From an uncultured Candidatus Poseidoniales archaeon (lineage in GTDB: Archaea; Thermoplasmatota; Poseidoniia; Poseidoniales; Poseidoniaceae), in the NCBI GenBank assembly GCA_905181785.1, contig CAJIZC010000026.1, positions 1 to 37,662 on the forward strand: a stretch of 37,662 nt of DNA, given 5' to 3'. The stretch's first letter is position 1. The number at the start of each line of letters is the position of its first letter. The position numbers and the translations under genes were made by a program. Below are positions 22,720 to 29,343 of this stretch, one piece after another. The notes under the pieces are model-generated. The model saw only the letters and a list, made by a program, of their open reading frames with translations, did not search any database and was not told the DNA's origin.

Positions 22720-23688
22720 ATGCCTGCTGAAGACACTGTTTTCAACGTCCTTTATGACAAGTTCATGTTTTGGAGTATCATTGTGGGGATTTTCACCTTC
22801 GGGTGGATGTTCATCGCTATGGTGCGCTACCGCGACGGCGTTGAGCCCGTTGAGAACATGGATAAGTACCACATCGAAGTTGGGTCTTTTCCCGTTGATT
22901 CTCACAATACCAAACTCGAAGTGTTGTTTTACGTGCTGCCGACCATCATTGTCGTCTGGCTCACAATGATGGCGCTCGCATCCAACACAGCCGTTTGGAC
23001 GCTTGATGAACGCGAAGAAACCTTTGACATCCAAATCGTCGGAAAGCAATGGTTCTGGGAATTCCACTACACCGAGGCCCTCACCTGGGAAGATCCAGGC
23101 ACGGACATCGACGTGGAATGGGCAGGCAACATGCTGATGGTCCACGCTCTCAACACAACGGCAACCAACATCACCATCGCGATCGATGGCGTGGAAACCG
23201 ATTATGCACTCAACGCTTCAGTCGGCATGTTGACGTTGATGAACACCATGTTCGATGCGGAACTCCACTCAAAAATTACCGTCTTTGACAGCGAAGATCA
23301 TTTGCTTCACACATGGGAGCATCTCCCGGTCGGCACCATTCTTTCCACCGCCGGCGGCGAACACCTCATCCTGCCTTGCGACAAGGTGAGCATCATGAAC
23401 CTCCATTCTCGACCATCCGATGCATCGAACCCAAATTACGTCGGTGTCCAACACTCCTTCTGGCTCCCTGAATGGGGCGTCAAAGAAGACTTGGTCCCCG
23501 GACTCGAGGCTGGAACAGTGATGTACGCTCAACCCGATGACATGGGTACCTTCCCTATTCGTTGCGCAGAGTACTGCGGCCTTGACCACTCAAAGATGCA
23601 AGGCCAAGTCACCATCGTTGCGACAGAAGGCGATACCTGTGAAAGGGACAGCGGCGTTCTAAAGTCAAATGATGGAGGCGGCTACTGA
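22720..23688 (+). CDS. coxB: Cytochrome c oxidase subunit II (CuA)
   Basis: A 322-aa subunit that carries the CuA electron entry site of a haem-copper oxidase. Two membrane helices are present (about 14-36 and 65-89), then the outer cupredoxin domain with GKQWFWEFHY (108-117). All CuA ligands are present: His245 in VQHSFWLPEWGV, then Cys282, Glu284, Cys286, His290 and Met293 in CAEYCGLDHSKM. The region from residue 118 to about 217 is longer than in standard enzymes. The spacing before the CuA His is also expanded (NLHSRPSDASNPNYVGVQHSFW). No haem-c CxxCH motif is fused at the C-terminus. The stop overlaps the ATG of subunit I by 1 nt. First gene of the oxidase operon. Confidence 0.95.
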   Translation: MPAEDTVFNVLYDKFMFWSIIVGIFTFGWMFIAMVRYRDGVEPVENMDKYHIEVGSFPVDSHNTKLEVLFYVLPTIIVVWLTMMALASNTAVWTLDEREETFDIQIVGKQWFWEFHYTEALTWEDPGTDIDVEWAGNMLMVHALNTTATNITIAIDGVETDYALNASVGMLTLMNTMFDAELHSKITVFDSEDHLLHTWEHLPVGTILSTAGGEHLILPCDKVSIMNLHSRPSDASNPNYVGVQHSFWLPEWGVKEDLVPGLEAGTVMYAQPDDMGTFPIRCAEYCGLDHSKMQGQVTIVATEGDTCERDSGVLKSNDGGGY

Positions 23689-26018
23689 TGCGAACCCGTG
23701 CACTCACCCTCGTTGCGCTCATGCTCCTCATGCTCGCAGCAACCCCTCAATTTGAGGCCATGCCTACAGGTATTGGTGCTGCAGGTGATAACGGATGTAC
23801 CTGCCACGGTGGGGCTTCTGGCGACACCTCCGTGATCGTCGAAGGGCTCCCCGAACGCTTCAACGCAAGCGAAACATACCCCTTCACCGTCACCGTTGTC
23901 AACGATGCAATGGAACTCCACAACGGAGGCAGCACGGAGGGCGCTGACCCATGGAACGGCCACGCAGGCGGATTCCGAATCCTCACCTCCTCAGGCATGG
24001 TTTCAACCGTCAATGAGTCCCTTGGCCACGACATGGACGGCGGTTTGACACACACGGCAGAAGCCAACGGTGTTCGAACTTGGGACTTTGAATGGGTCGC
24101 TCCGGGCGACGACGGCAAAGTTGTCGATATCACCGTGTACGGTAACGCTGTCAACGGCGGCGCTGGCTCTGGTGGCGATTACTGGAACCAAGCAGACTTC
24201 ATGATTCCTGGCGCTAACGCTGGCGAAGTTGCCCCAAGCGCTCGTGCTCTTGTCGTGCTCATTACCGCCATTGGACTCGCTCTCGGCCTTGTGTTGCTCG
24301 GCGTGCTCTACGTGTTCTATGCCCGCAACCCTTCGACCTTCACCATCGAGCACTTCTGGTCTTACCTCAAGCCTTGGCTCACCACCACCGATCACAAAGA
24401 AGTCGGTATCCTCTACTTCCTTTATGGATTCACCTTCTTCCTCGTTGGTGGCGTGCTTGCGCTGCTGTTCCGTATTCAACTGGCCTTGCCTGAAAACACC
24501 TTCCTCACCGAAACGGAATACAACTCTTTCTTCACCCTTCACGGGACAACTATGATTTTCTTGGCCGCCATGCCAATGATTGCAGGTTTCATGAACTACG
24601 TGCTTCCGCTCCAGATTGGAGCAAAGGACCTGGCATTCCCTCGAATCAACGCTATGGGTCTGTGGCTCCTTGTGTTCTCGAGCCCGCTGATCTACGCTGG
24701 TATTTGGTCCGGTGAAGGCGCTGACATTACGTGGGTCATGTACCCACCTTACTCTTCATTGACTGAAGCCAACCTCGGGGCAGAACTCGCTCAGTACGGT
24801 TCGAACCCGGGAACGACAGCGTTCATCTCAGGTATTCTGATGCTTGGCGCATCTTCGACGCTTGGTGGTGTGAACTTCATCACCACGGTGTTCACCATGC
24901 GCGCACCCGGTGTCGGTTTCATGAAGATGCCATTGTTCGCTTGGTCGGTCTTCGTCAGCGTGTTCATGCTCTACATGTCGCTTCCAGCCTTTATCATCGG
25001 CGTGGCGTTCCTCTTGTTCGACCACACCCTCGGCACGGTCTTCTTTACTGCGGGTGGCGACAGTTTGCTGTTCCAGCACCTGTTCTGGTTCTTCGGGCAT
25101 CCCGAAGTTTACGTCGTCGTTGTGCCAGCGTTTGGTATCGTCTCTGAAGTGCTTGCTACAAGCGCTCGACGCTCGATTTTCGGATACAAGTCAATGGTCT
25201 TTGCAATGGCTGGTATCGGCGTTGTTGGTTTCATCGTTTGGGGCCACCACATGCTCACCTCCGGAATGGATCCGTTCTGGCGCGCTGCGTTCATGATCAC
25301 CACCATGGCGGTAGCAATCCCAACGGGCGCTAAGGTGTTCAACTGGCTTGCAACCATTTGGGGCGGCAGCCTCATCATGAAAACACACACGTTGTGGTCG
25401 CTTGGATTCCTTGTCACCTTCACGCTTGGTGGTATCTCTGGTATGTTCTTCCCAGTGGCTGGACTGGACGTCCACTTCCACGACTCGTACTTCGTTGTCG
25501 CTCACTTCCATTACGTGTTCATTGGCGGTACTGTCTTCGCATTGTTCTCCGGTGTTTACTACTGGTACCCCAAGGCAACGGGCCGCAAGCTCAACGAAAC
25601 ATTGGGTCTTTGGCACTTCTTGATTGGATTTGCTTCCTACAACGCAACCTTCTGGCCCATGCACGCACTTGGTATCATGGGCATGCCTCGCCGAACGCAC
25701 AGTTACACAACTGAAAGCGGCTTTGCTGAGTACAACATGGCTGTCAGTACCTTCTCCTTCATCTTCGGATTGAGTCAGTTGTTGCTCGTTTGGAACATCA
25801 TCCGTTCCAACCGACACGGCGAGCCAGCAGGAAATGATCCGTGGGGCGGATGGTCGCTCGAGTGGATGACCACCTCGCCACCACCTACACCTTCCTTCCA
25901 TGACATCCCAACACAGGGTGACATGAACGAACTCTACGGCCATCACGGCACGGGTCAGAAGAAGGAAAATCCGCTCAAGAAATTGGCTACACCACTCGCA
26001 AAGGGGGTCGAAGAATGA
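23688..26018 (+). CDS. coxA: Haem-copper oxidase subunit I with exported N-terminal domain
   Basis: A 776-aa protein, about 200 residues longer than usual. Residues 1-24 form a signal peptide. Residues 25-180 are an exported beta-rich domain with Cys37-Thr-Cys39-His40 (NGCTCHGG) and a Gly/Asn/Thr-rich sandwich, resembling Reeler or choice-of-anchor V domains (inference). A linking helix (about 186-212) leads to the oxidase core from about 230 (TTTDHKEVG). Core ligands: haem a His285 (LHGTT) and His608, CuB His471, His520 and His521, haem a3 His606, and cross-link Tyr475 in HPEVY. D-channel Asp314 and Asn321 and K-channel Thr546 and Lys549 (IPTGAKVFNW) are present, so this is an A1-type enzyme reducing O2 to water and pumping protons. 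It overlaps subunit III by 4 nt. Confidence 0.95.
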   Translation: MRTRALTLVALMLLMLAATPQFEAMPTGIGAAGDNGCTCHGGASGDTSVIVEGLPERFNASETYPFTVTVVNDAMELHNGGSTEGADPWNGHAGGFRILTSSGMVSTVNESLGHDMDGGLTHTAEANGVRTWDFEWVAPGDDGKVVDITVYGNAVNGGAGSGGDYWNQADFMIPGANAGEVAPSARALVVLITAIGLALGLVLLGVLYVFYARNPSTFTIEHFWSYLKPWLTTTDHKEVGILYFLYGFTFFLVGGVLALLFRIQLALPENTFLTETEYNSFFTLHGTTMIFLAAMPMIAGFMNYVLPLQIGAKDLAFPRINAMGLWLLVFSSPLIYAGIWSGEGADITWVMYPPYSSLTEANLGAELAQYGSNPGTTAFISGILMLGASSTLGGVNFITTVFTMRAPGVGFMKMPLFAWSVFVSVFMLYMSLPAFIIGVAFLLFDHTLGTVFFTAGGDSLLFQHLFWFFGHPEVYVVVVPAFGIVSEVLATSARRSIFGYKSMVFAMAGIGVVGFIVWGHHMLTSGMDPFWRAAFMITTMAVAIPTGAKVFNWLATIWGGSLIMKTHTLWSLGFLVTFTLGGISGMFFPVAGLDVHFHDSYFVVAHFHYVFIGGTVFALFSGVYYWYPKATGRKLNETLGLWHFLIGFASYNATFWPMHALGIMGMPRRTHSYTTESGFAEYNMAVSTFSFIFGLSQLLLVWNIIRSNRHGEPAGNDPWGGWSLEWMTTSPPPTPSFHDIPTQGDMNELYGHHGTGQKKENPLKKLATPLAKGVEE

Positions 26019-27397
26019 GCGGACATGGAAACGACGTCGCAAACAGCACCTGGTTGCGTGCCATTATGATGGCTGGCTTGATCCTCACGATTGGTGTCGC
26101 TGGATTCGCCGTGCTTGGTGTTGGCATCGCTGACCAAAAGCACCACACATGGGAAGACGAACATCATCACTACGACGACGCCAAGAAAGAATGGCAAGAC
26201 GCCGTCGCTGCTGGAACCATTTCAGGGGAAGATCACGACACAGAGTTGTACATCGCTAAGGAAGAAGCCCACAACGACGAAGTTGCGGCTCACCTCTCCT
26301 ACCTCACCTACCGTGTAGCTGGCATGACCATGCTGTTCCTCACGGCTGGCTATGCCGCATTCATCGGACTTGGTGGTTTCTTGAACGCAAGTAAGCCAAA
26401 GGCAGACGACCACGGTGATGATCATGGCCATGGCGACGGGTATGGTGACGATCACCACGGCTCCGCCTCCCCGATCATCTTCGCCTTCGGTATCATGGTG
26501 TTCTTGATGGGCTTGCCCGATTTCATCGTCGCTTGCAAAGCACTGCTCGATGACACGGTCGTTGCCGAACTCGGCATGCTTGGCGTCAGCGTTTCAGGAT
26601 TGTTAATCATCGTCATCGCCGTCTCGAACTGGTGGTTCGAAGATTTGCCCTTCATCGGTCACGGTGAGCAAATTGCAACCTCGTATCCGTTCGAAGGCGA
26701 CCACATTCGAAAGGTCGGTCTTTGGGTGTTTATCATGTCTGAAATCATGGTGTTCGCCACCTTCTTTTCCTCGTACCTACGAATGCGTACTGAATGGTGC
26801 ACAAAGTGGGCCTTTGAGAACAGCGACGGTGGATTTGAGGGCTGTCAATCATCTGATGATTGGGTCCTCACAGCATCCGATTACCTCCGACCTGGCGGCG
26901 CTAAGATCGACGGGCTAGGAAACTCAGTTGGTGACTTCTGGACCCTATTACCTGGTGGAATCAACACCTTTGCTCTGATCATCTCCTCCTACACAATCGT
27001 TCTCGCACTCAAGACCGCCAAGAACGCAAACTGGGAAGCGCCAAAGGGCATCATGGGCAAACTCATGCCAACCCGAAAGGCAGCAGTCCGAAACTACCTC
27101 ATCGCTACACTGATGCTTGGTTCCCTGTTTATTGTGCTCAAACTCGTCGAGTGGAGCCACTTGGTGGCTGAAGGGTTCACCATCGGTACCGTTCAAGGTT
27201 CAATCTTCTACATCGCCACCGGCGCACACGGCCTTCACGTGTTCATTGGTCTGGTGATTATGCTGTACTTGGTGTTCAAGGCGGACACCATCGGCTTTGA
27301 CGAGGACAACGCACAGGGCATCGAATACTTCGGTTTGTACTGGCACTTTGTCGACCTGGCTTGGGTGGTTATCTTCCCAGCATTCTACTTGTATTGA
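26015..27397 (+). CDS. coxC: Cytochrome c oxidase subunit III with four-helix N-terminal extension
   Basis: A 460-aa protein, while subunit III alone is about 200-270. The canonical part begins at about 227 (EGDHIRKVGLWVFIMSEIMVF, with conserved Glu243) and continues through GGINTFALIISSYT and ATGAHGLHVFIGL to the end, WHFVDLAWVVIFPAFYLY. The first 225 residues hold four more hydrophobic helices (about 13-37, 98-122, 152-173, 186-204). A first outer loop of about 60 residues is rich in Asp, Glu and His. A second loop at 131-148 is almost only Asp, His and Gly (DDHGDDHGHGDGYGDDHH) and could bind metal. The overlap with coxA is ATGA. Subunit III supports the stability and proton uptake of the oxidase; the extension is unexplained. 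Confidence 0.93.
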   Translation: MSGHGNDVANSTWLRAIMMAGLILTIGVAGFAVLGVGIADQKHHTWEDEHHHYDDAKKEWQDAVAAGTISGEDHDTELYIAKEEAHNDEVAAHLSYLTYRVAGMTMLFLTAGYAAFIGLGGFLNASKPKADDHGDDHGHGDGYGDDHHGSASPIIFAFGIMVFLMGLPDFIVACKALLDDTVVAELGMLGVSVSGLLIIVIAVSNWWFEDLPFIGHGEQIATSYPFEGDHIRKVGLWVFIMSEIMVFATFFSSYLRMRTEWCTKWAFENSDGGFEGCQSSDDWVLTASDYLRPGGAKIDGLGNSVGDFWTLLPGGINTFALIISSYTIVLALKTAKNANWEAPKGIMGKLMPTRKAAVRNYLIATLMLGSLFIVLKLVEWSHLVAEGFTIGTVQGSIFYIATGAHGLHVFIGLVIMLYLVFKADTIGFDEDNAQGIEYFGLYWHFVDLAWVVIFPAFYLY

Positions 27398-27406
27398 GGT
27401 GAGATC

Positions 27407-27772
27407 ATGGGAGAGCACGCAAATTTATACATGGGCAAAGACATCTACTTTTGGAACTTTATCGTTTTGATGGTTTTCACGCTGTTTGAACTTGGAGCGG
27501 TCTTCTTTGAGACTGTCCCAGGCACCGACATTGACATCAGCCGCTCGGCGGTATGGGCTATTCTCATCGGCGTTGGCATTGTCAAGGGATACGGTATCGC
27601 TGCGTTCTTCATGCACTTGCGAGACGAACACAAGTGGTTCAACATCACGTTCATGTTCCCTTGGATCTTTGTTGCCCTCATGCTTTGGGGCATTGGCCTG
27701 TCCAACCCCGAAGGGGTCACAGGACTCCCAAGCTGGTGCACACCAGATTGGAGTTACGCAACCGAACGCTGA
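27407..27772 (+). CDS. coxD: Cytochrome c oxidase subunit IV (prokaryotic type)
   Basis: A 121-aa small membrane subunit with three helices (about 12-35, 48-66, 78-98). The family motif is visible in the second helix and following loop (GIVKGYGIAAFFMHLRDEHKW; the family reads K...AxxFMHL). It begins 9 nt after coxC, with GAGGTGAG upstream, so it belongs to the same operon. A short outer C-terminus contains one Cys (PSWCTPDW). Its role is accessory, in assembly and stability. Confidence 0.88.
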   Translation: MGEHANLYMGKDIYFWNFIVLMVFTLFELGAVFFETVPGTDIDISRSAVWAILIGVGIVKGYGIAAFFMHLRDEHKWFNITFMFPWIFVALMLWGIGLSNPEGVTGLPSWCTPDWSYATER

Positions 27773-27819
27773 ACCGGGTTGGCATAACCTTCAAACCTCT
27801 GCGCTGAGGGGAGAACACC

Positions 27820-29343
27820 ATGAAGGCCCAACGCTTGCTAACCTTGTGCATTTGCTTCGCGCTTCTCGTGGCTGCAACCCCGAATGCAACGGCCTACAAA
27901 GGCCATCAATTGTCAAGGAACGATATCGTTGATTTTACCCTCGTTGATCAGAACGCAGAGAACTTCACATTCTCCACCCTTGACAAGGACGTGACCGTCG
28001 TCGCGTTTATTTTCACAGCGTGCCCTGACGTGTGCCCCGTGATCACTCAATCGCTCCGGCTCGTCCAAGAAGGGCTCTCTGAATCGGATGCAGAACGCGT
28101 TGGTTTTGTTTCAATCTCAGTTGACCCTGATCGAGACACACCCGAAGCACTGACCGAATTTACAGAACGCCATGGAGTTTCGTGGCCTCATCTAACCGGC
28201 GACAAGGACACTCTTTCCGAAGTGTACCGCAATTTTGGCGTCCTTGTTGATCAACAGGTCATCGATGCTCACATCGAAGTGAACGAAGATCCAACAGTGA
28301 CTTATGTCGATCCTTCGGGAAACGCTTCGGAATTTATGTTCATGCCATCTGGATGGGAGTTCCATCAAATCATGGCTCATGAGGCCAATTGGAGCATCAA
28401 CGCTACGGACAGTGAATACGGTCATTATGTCACAGCGATAGAAGGGGTTGAAGCCCCTTCGGATTCTTCTTGGTGGTGGAGCCTGTTGATTCACAATGAA
28501 ACCTCAGGAGCGTGGGAAGCATCTGATGTAGGCATTGATTCAATCGACGCTCTGGAACACGACCAACTGGTTTGGGCTGCTTCGAACGCCAACACCTCCA
28601 ATCTCGCAGCCCCCCACCCAGACCACCCAACAATGCAAGTGCTGTTTCCAGACAACACAACGGCCAACCATACCCTTCAGGAAATGAACGCATGGCACCT
28701 TTCCATGGGTGCATTTGCCGGAGCAGGCCTCAACACCTCGATGCCATCCAGTGAATGGGGCCACTACATGGAATCGATAGATGATGTTGTAGCACCTTCG
28801 AATTATTCGTGGTGGTGGAGCCTCTCCACTTGGAATGCCACCTCCCAAGCATGGGACGCTTCCAGCCTCGGCATGGACAGCCTGATCGAACCAACCTACA
28901 TCGCATGGTCGCCCAATTCCACCAACCTCTCCGAGATTCCACCACCAGGTGCAACCTTGAGAGACGAAGTGCAACCCGGAGTCTGCAACAACCACGGATG
29001 GGAAATGGGAACTGGCGAGGGCAAGCATTGCATGTGCGATGAAGGCTATGAGTGGGCTGAAGACAGCCGAACTTCCTGCGTTTCGAGCGATATAACAGCG
29101 ATTGATTACGCCGTTGGGCACTCCACGATCACCTACATCCTCGATGGCATGACGCCAACGGTCGCATGGACCGGGGATTCGTGGCGAGCAGAAGATTTCC
29201 AAATCGATGTTGAAGCGGCACTCGGAGGGCAATCTGACCCGGGCCAAAACAGCGGTATGCCCGGCCTTACCTTTGGCATCGCTATGGCTGGCCTTGGCTT
29301 GGCAGCGGCTGCAATCACCCCCCGTCGAGAACCAGATCAGTGA
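27820..29343 (+). CDS. SCO1/SenC-type copper chaperone fused to two DUF4430-like modules, EGF-like module and C-terminal anchor
   Basis: A 507-aa exported protein. Signal peptide about 1-25. The SCO thioredoxin-like domain covers about 30-190, with Cys68 and Cys72 in FTACPDVCP and the SVDPDRDTPEAL segment. These proteins insert copper into CuA of subunit II, which fits the operon. The usual copper-binding His, which sits 5 residues before the Tyr of the VTYLIDP strand, is not at that place here (Asp157); the nearest is His151. Two similar modules follow, about 196-256 and 273-366 (GHYVTAIEGVEAPSDSSWWWSL, GHYMESIDDVVAPSNYSWWWSL), of DUF4430/transcobalamin-like type. Then a four-Cys EGF-like stretch (389-420). 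The end, PGLTFGIAMAGLGLAAAAITPRRE, resembles a PGF-type archaeosortase signal. Confidence 0.9.
   Translation: MKAQRLLTLCICFALLVAATPNATAYKGHQLSRNDIVDFTLVDQNAENFTFSTLDKDVTVVAFIFTACPDVCPVITQSLRLVQEGLSESDAERVGFVSISVDPDRDTPEALTEFTERHGVSWPHLTGDKDTLSEVYRNFGVLVDQQVIDAHIEVNEDPTVTYVDPSGNASEFMFMPSGWEFHQIMAHEANWSINATDSEYGHYVTAIEGVEAPSDSSWWWSLLIHNETSGAWEASDVGIDSIDALEHDQLVWAASNANTSNLAAPHPDHPTMQVLFPDNTTANHTLQEMNAWHLSMGAFAGAGLNTSMPSSEWGHYMESIDDVVAPSNYSWWWSLSTWNATSQAWDASSLGMDSLIEPTYIAWSPNSTNLSEIPPPGATLRDEVQPGVCNNHGWEMGTGEGKHCMCDEGYEWAEDSRTSCVSSDITAIDYAVGHSTITYILDGMTPTVAWTGDSWRAEDFQIDVEAALGGQSDPGQNSGMPGLTFGIAMAGLGLAAAAITPRREPDQ

Follow-up and report, generated by a model that had tools for sequence, protein, structure and literature searches.

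In caa3 oxidases, a cytochrome c is fused to subunit II and acts as a fixed carrier before CuA. Cytochrome f of the b6f complex combines an N-terminal C..CH site, a beta-sandwich and a C-terminal membrane helix, and the actinobacterial III2-IV2 supercomplex, whose c-haems are found in complex III only (with the dihaem cytochrome QcrC), does not need a soluble cytochrome c. Here we compare with these systems an oxidase encoded in a stretch of 37,662 nucleotides, referred to as the window (GenBank assembly GCA_905181785.1, contig CAJIZC010000026.1, positions 1 to 37,662), from an uncultured Candidatus Poseidoniales archaeon of marine group II (MGII). Its subunit I, CoxA, starts with an exported domain of the family called choice-of-anchor V, and the same genome encodes a stand-alone copy beside cytochrome b and a Rieske protein (the complex III copy in the following). 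As in the caa3 oxidases, an exported electron-donor-like domain is fused to a CuA oxidase, but here it is the N-terminus of subunit I that carries the fusion, and the domain is a beta-sandwich rather than a class I cytochrome c. The complex III copy shares with cytochrome f the N-terminal C..CH, the beta-sandwich, the C-terminal helix and the position next to cytochrome b and the Rieske protein. Cytochrome f, however, is not among the 50 Foldseek matches listed for the domain and has CxxCH where CxCH is found here; the likeness is one in working, not shown in descent, and is likely convergent. Solved structures of the actinobacterial supercomplex rank nearest to the CoxA core, yet c-haems are confined to complex III there, whereas a module common to complexes III and IV is proposed here.

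We assign a probability of roughly 55% to the reading that the exported domain of CoxA, built as a Reeler-like beta-sandwich, bears a cofactor at its C-x-CH site and acts in complexes III and IV as an electron-transfer module resembling a cytochrome c. The evidence comprises the identity of the domain, its conserved fusion to CoxA, the invariant CxCH, the spacing variants of this site, the occurrence of genes of the cytochrome c maturation (Ccm) type in genomes lacking any match to the cytochrome c family PF13442, and the operons in which the domain is encountered. The parts of CoxA are the following.

23688..26018, + strand: coxA, 776 amino acids (aa), choice-of-anchor V domain plus extra transmembrane helix plus aa3-type oxidase subunit I
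23688..23759, + strand: predicted signal peptide, approximately residues 1-24 (helix 2-21 in the full-length model)
23751..24197, + strand: exported choice-of-anchor V domain (Reeler-like beta-sandwich), residues 22-170
23796..23807, + strand: C-x-C-H site (CTCH, within GCTCHGG), residues 37-40, proposed haem-c-like attachment site
24051..24053, + strand: invariant His122, candidate second axial ligand
24246..24326, + strand: extra N-terminal transmembrane helix, residues 187-213
24375..25913, + strand: canonical subunit I core, residues 230-742

A Reeler-like domain fused to subunit I

The first-pass annotation had described a signal peptide, an exported part with an NGCTCHGG motif, an extra helix and a core starting at about residue 230. 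All of these indeed lie in a single open reading frame (ORF) of 776 aa, whose ATG overlaps the coxB stop, and the profile coverage agrees with this layout. The NCBIfam model NF041895 (choice-of-anchor V) matches residues 22-170 with 72.5 bits against a cut-off of 42, covering positions 12-148 of the 150 in the profile, while no Pfam model, neither Reeler nor cytochrome f, matches the domain at E <= 1. This score, together with the invariance of the CxCH in 65 fused proteins, argues against a chance resemblance. The domain is not an unknown one. Its outward position and the earlier guess of a metal or a modified haem agree with the evidence. Choice-of-anchor V is an already named family with varying anchors and no described function. 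In the open-licence literature, a search of which does not prove absence, we found no publication on 'choice-of-anchor V' and none describing the fusion to MGII cytochrome c oxidase subunit I, nor was the fusion met elsewhere in the literature looked at.

An AF2 model of the exported domain, computed from an alignment (A1) of 76 sequences (the window CoxA, 45 fused loci and 30 stand-alone sequences), has a mean pLDDT of 92 and consists of a beta-sandwich followed by a helix; the model of full-length CoxA is only moderate (pLDDT 70). A second alignment (A2) held 40 of the 65 fused proteins, with L067 and its 1242-aa frame excluded. In Foldseek, ranks 1-5 and 8 of the best 15 matches of the domain model are the Reeler (Reelin-N) domain of F-spondin (2zot, 3coo, 2zou), ranks 1-5 having E-values of 2.1e-5 to 7.1e-5 and TM-scores of 0.41-0.43 by query and 0.52-0.56 by target, at a sequence identity of 11-14%. 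From E 1.6e-4 onwards the matches are to other beta-sandwich proteins, one of which (4lba_A) has a higher TM-score by target (0.66). When a profile was compared with the PDB sequences, Spondin-1 (Reeler) came out on top with a weak E of 0.071 and cytochrome c-553 second (E 0.076), the latter through its CxxCH; the exported part alone had weak matches only, the best being a pseudopilin (E 0.023). The modelled fold is Reeler-like, which is a similarity and no proof of descent, and we know of no CxCH in animal Reeler domains. A plasmid search returned no match to the domain.

In the core, PF00115 (COX1) matches residues 239-691 at E 9e-140 (466.8 bits, cut-off 34.8), whereas the threshold of the CtaD/CoxA equivalog TIGR02891 is missed (627.7 against 670.75 bits), so CoxA is by sequence a divergent member relative to this equivalog. 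As the earlier annotation had stated, the subunit I ligands are all present: H285, H471, Y475, H520, H521, H606 and H608 are in place, which we take to be the haem and CuB ligands. Subunit I of the bo3 oxidase is alignable from residue 189 of CoxA, i.e. including the extra helix, and in all 41 distinct PDB sequences matching CoxA at E <= 1e-20 the best aligned stretch starts at residue 189 or later.

The first-pass annotation had named an assembly join, or absence from close relatives, as what would refute the fusion; the distribution bears out neither. Among matches to CoxA in 193 Poseidoniales genomes, 145 of the best 150 (149 genomes; counted by hand) begin at query residue 9 or earlier; the five others start at residues 20 (G150), 31 (G134), 77 (G152), 101 (G120, at a contig start) and 279 (G081). 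Because these 145 matches align from the first nine residues, and because genomes of marine group III (MGIII) and one groundwater Thermoplasmata genome (G216) also carry the fusion, it is not an assembly join; all MGII and MGIII genomes seen have retained it, and so has that one further lineage. COX1 is present in 192 of 389 Thermoplasmatota genomes. Fifteen of 30 COX1 loci taken from these genomes are fused (eight MGII, six MGIII, and G216), two from family f6 carry an exported extension of another kind, and 13 have no choice-of-anchor V domain (one of these, L087, as judged from its 523-aa frame only). The groundwater genome encodes two fused CoxA proteins, with frames of 784 and 809 aa, besides four or more other proteins with the domain. 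In a tree of 42 COX1 cores, all 27 fused cores (L110 and L114 counted as fused) lie on one side of a single branch with support of 100/96, which fits a single origin of the fusion within this set.

Two side observations concern unusual COX1 proteins. The extension in the two family f6 loci (L090, L094) is a second kind of exported N-terminal addition to CoxA, not matched by the domain profile. One MGII genome (G077; locus L077 on contig C6) has an extra ordinary COX1 frame of 573 aa on a long branch, possibly from a contaminating contig.

The C-x-CH site and genes of the cytochrome c maturation type

C37, C39, H40 and H122 are invariant in the 65 aligned fused proteins, as are W132, W136, N153, G157 and D164. 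A wider set of 167 distinct domain sequences was drawn from loci fetched mostly for holding the domain, with MGII CoxA heavily represented and matches below 15 bits dropped. In all 167, CH occupies the same two alignment columns, and in 166 a Cys stands one to six residues ahead of it, the first Cys being lost in one. The spacing is CxCH in 151 sequences, CxxCH in 10, CX3CH in one, CX4CH in three and CX6CH in one, and a His at the position of H122 is found in 148 of the 151 CxCH domains and 3 of the 10 CxxCH domains. Three more paralogues encoded in ccm loci, below the family cut-off, have CX3CH (two) and CX4CH (one). The CTCH of CoxA departs from the canonical CxxCH of a c-type cytochrome. 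Nevertheless, a kept C...CH with a variable spacer, CxxCH included, could be the pattern of a haem-c site, and such variation would be less expected of a structural disulfide or of a zinc or copper site.

A scan of genome contigs with a single archaeal peptide pattern, uninformative on bacteria, yielded 24 loci, all archaeal. In one domain protein (L174, genome G256) the site reads GATCH, with the first Cys lost, resembling single-Cys haem sites. Exported CX3CH proteins, possibly related to the domain, were seen at L132:17583-18653, L137:49-1206, L164 and L165; the first two adjoin a domain gene of about 900 aa, and the one at L132 has no Pfam or NCBIfam match. The survey in which these four appeared covered 698 kb, mostly MGII and chosen mainly around the domain, and was not a census of CxxCH proteins.

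PF01578 is matched in 96 of 96 sampled Poseidoniales genomes, in 95 of them over the cut-off. The PF01578 proteins inspected are CcmF-like and CcmC-like, and a CcmA-like ABC ATPase adjoins the CcmC-like one; all are below the NCBIfam equivalog cut-offs. The ATPase has a hydrophobic C-terminal part and is perhaps a CcmA-CcmB fusion. The CcmF-like protein matches TIGR00353 at E 4e-39, over residues 57-307 only, and contains WGGYWAWDPVETGSLLPW, presumably a WWD-type motif, while the CcmC-like protein of the window's own genome matches TIGR01191 at E 1e-19. None of 193 Poseidoniales genomes has any match to PF13442 (class I cytochrome c), the control being matched in 6 of 14 named genomes, which agrees with the statement in part of PMC9287336 that PF00034 and PF01322 are missing from the Thermoplasmatota genomes studied there. 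Multihaem CxxCH proteins do occur in other Thermoplasmatota (G377, G404, G440), and cytochrome c is reported for two single-cell genomes of Thermoplasmatales in an excerpt of PMC4429474.

Across the 389 Thermoplasmatota genomes, the domain is found in 168 (149 over the cut-off) and PF01578 in 176. Within the host class (134 genomes) the two are nearly universal, with the domain in 134 and PF01578 in 133. In the 255 genomes outside it, PF01578 is present in every one of the 15 whose domain is over the cut-off, compared with 28 of the 240 others (Fisher p 2e-13, uncorrected for relatedness; the 15 genomes, G216 among them, span 12 families). When domain matches at E <= 0.001 are counted, 34 genomes outside the host class have the domain, 24 of them with PF01578 and 10 without. 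COX1 is a poorer companion of the domain there, being present in 8 of the 15 over-cut-off genomes. In families f27 and f6, COX1 occurs in many genomes, and PF01578 and an over-cut-off domain occur in none; two f27 genomes have weak domain matches.

Gene contexts of the domain

At locus L125 of the window's own genome, the gene for a 365-aa domain protein precedes, in this order, those for a DUF7318-like protein (20.8 bits, below the cut-off), a Rieske protein with the boxes CTHLCC and CICHSS (named by motif, no Pfam match at E <= 0.01), a cytochrome b of 291 aa (PF00033, E 4.7e-42) and an iron-sulfur protein of 942 aa. This domain protein, the complex III copy, has no Pfam match at E <= 10, cytochrome f included. 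The order domain-DUF7318-Rieske is kept in 12 of 12 MGII loci examined, i.e. that of the window's own genome and 11 regions chosen for the length of their domain frames (271-294 aa) and labelled by phmmer with the L125 proteins; in one of these (G036) a Rieske-type motif beside the domain was known beforehand. Cytochrome b is labelled in 11 of the 12, an unlabelled 312-aa ORF standing in its place in L207. As stated in part of Tully 2019 (PMC6336850), most MGII have cytochrome b and Rieske and lack a canonical bc1. The groundwater genome G216 encodes two domain proteins, a DUF7318 protein (42.5 bits, over the cut-off) and a Rieske protein. Of nine regions from genomes outside the Poseidoniales, two (L216, L219) have a respiratory partner and seven have none as judged with a small query set; in two of the seven (L221, L224) the domain ORF itself was not retained by the script.

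Other lineages add further settings. An MGIII genome (G195) has a second oxidase operon in which CoxB (PF00116) and an unfused 503-aa CoxA (PF00115) are directly followed by a 204-aa domain protein with CICH, with a 240-aa subunit-III-like gene (named by eye) upstream. Two genomes of one f37 genus (L199:4599-8771 and L200), each with a single PF01578 match, share a three-gene order in which a domain protein with CSCH, scoring 39.7-42.2 bits and thus at the cut-off, comes before a NapH-like membrane ferredoxin and CcmF. In G377, G404 and G440, domain genes, some below the cut-off, lie amid ccm genes and multihaem cytochromes, and in G224 a domain gene is upstream of a molybdopterin oxidoreductase (PF00384, E 3.9e-36). 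Judged from the sequences, the domain operons represent redox contexts in separate lineages. The idea in the first-pass annotation of a site for docking an electron donor is narrower than what these contexts suggest, namely an electron-carrying module of complexes III and IV.

Two observations stand beside these loci. In the operon at L125:758-6871 (own genome, contig C17), the iron-sulfur protein belongs to a CCG/Fer4 type of about 900-940 aa, heterodisulfide-reductase-like by domains, and both this type and the DUF7318-like protein are labelled in all 12 MGII cytochrome b/Rieske loci. At L126:3193-5689 (own genome, contig C11), a 320-aa domain protein with CSCH and no His122 equivalent is encoded directly 3' of a gene whose product, judged by eye, is a transhydrogenase-like membrane subunit.

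The fused coxA itself belongs to an aa3-type oxidase operon at 22720-29343, the remaining genes of which are these.

22720..23688, + strand: coxB, with CuA motif (PF00116, E 1.8e-9), stop overlapping the coxA start
26015..27397, + strand: coxC (subunit III), 460 aa, with a long N-terminal extension (PF00510, E 2.4e-18)
27407..27772, + strand: prokaryotic cytochrome oxidase subunit IV (PF03626, E 6.6e-13)
27820..29343, + strand: SCO1/SenC-type protein with a C-terminal extension, putatively for CuA assembly (PF02630, E 8.6e-27)

The CuA motif of CoxB reads CAEYCGLDHSKM. The extension of subunit III, ahead of its Pfam-matched part, appears by eye rich in His and Asp, and the SCO1-type protein has a DUF4430-like stretch (20.5 bits, below the cut-off of 23.8), seemingly repeated by eye, and a Cys-rich stretch and a helix at its C-terminus.

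Proposed working and its alternatives

If the exported domain is an electron-transfer module, its cofactor would sit at the C-x-CH near the mature N-terminus and would most likely be a covalently attached haem. Export and the anchoring through helix 187-213 place the CoxA domain on the CuA face; bearing the haem, it could serve as a fixed carrier ahead of CuA, while the stand-alone copy encoded with cytochrome b and Rieske, itself membrane-anchored, would stand in for cytochrome c1/f. Electrons would then pass from quinol via Rieske to the complex III copy, from there directly or via halocyanin to the CoxA copy, and on to CuA and oxygen. Halocyanin could be the shuttle between the two copies; its gene is among the most transcribed ones of Ca. 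Thalassarchaeaceae according to part of PMC9723583. The haem, its ligands, the electron path and the docking are what we infer. The wider proposition that choice-of-anchor V constitutes an unrecognised class of cytochromes c of Reeler fold, with haem attached by Ccm at C-x(1-4)-CH and CxCH as a novel spacing for haem, and replaces c1/f and the complex IV donor in MGII and MGIII, having been incorporated into subunit I in the latter case, is tentative, a shade short of an even chance.

Several points weigh against a haem-bearing module. CxCH is no established haem-c motif (those named in an excerpt of PMC10663686 are CXXCH, CXXCK and CX15CH), and no publication linking CXCH to cytochrome c maturation and heme was found in the open-licence literature. 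The His122 equivalent is gone in 7 of 10 CxxCH and 3 of 151 CxCH members, and to our knowledge animal Reeler domains have no haem. The window's own genome (80% complete) has a CcmC-like gene only, one host-class genome (G106) has no PF01578 match, and CcmE was not found among the few scanned neighbours of MGII ccm genes. The 28 genomes outside the host class with PF01578 and no over-cut-off domain are further contrary points, as are the ten with a domain and no PF01578, the domain matches of which are all weak (E >= 4e-7) and below the cut-off. Several ccm-locus copies are likewise at or below the cut-off of 42 (39.7, 35.5, 33.7 and 26.9 bits). Ccm and the domain may co-occur through a shared lifestyle, and Ccm could serve CxxCH proteins outside PF13442. 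Marine group terms do not occur in PMC9084895 or in the available part of PMC4429474, both archaeal Ccm papers. Finally, two copies stand where a role in electron transfer is less evident: one forms the front part of a large surface-type protein with calcium-type (thrombospondin-3-like) repeats, encoded in the window's own genome, and the other that of a protein matching PKD weakly.

One alternative is a cofactor-free structural or docking domain, in which the CxC would form a disulfide and the beta-sandwich would land a blue-copper donor or complex III. The nearest folds are Reeler and other beta-sandwiches, with no cytochrome in the 50 Foldseek matches listed, one copy is on the large repeat protein, and the strongly transcribed halocyanin (the same part of PMC9723583) would be a candidate donor. 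This explanation leaves unaccounted for the invariant His after the second Cys, the interchange of CxxCH, CX3CH and CX4CH, the co-occurrence with Ccm and the operons, and we deem it rather unlikely. In another alternative, the CxC and His would bind Cu(I) and load CuB or CuA in cis, replacing Cox11, the fold of which is Ig-like and includes a CxC copper motif; Cox11 (PF04442) was found in none of 96 Poseidoniales genomes (the control was matched in 1 of 14 named genomes), and a SCO1-type gene lies within the oxidase operon. The same site, however, recurs on copies encoded with cytochrome b and Rieske, next to CcmF and next to a molybdoenzyme, settings in which one would not expect copper loading, so we rank this improbable alternative below both the structural one and electron transfer. 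Least credible to us, and quite improbable, is a general cell-surface module for adhesion or envelope contact, accidentally fused to CoxA and without a respiratory role: several copies per genome on different anchors would suit it, but the fusion is retained across the MGII and MGIII genomes seen, and the domain has separate associations, one with complex III and one with an unfused CoxA.

In the surface ocean, MGII rank with the most abundant archaea of the plankton (part of PMC6461757). Most of them have cytochrome b and Rieske, whereas canonical bc1 is reported missing (part of PMC6336850), as is cytochrome c in Thermoplasmatota (part of PMC9287336). A domain common to complexes III and IV would be a direct and testable answer to the question of where electrons go from complex III. 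An electron-transfer role, if true, would give a function to a family without a described one, and haem binding, if true, would add a further haem-c spacing and fold to genome counts of cytochromes c.

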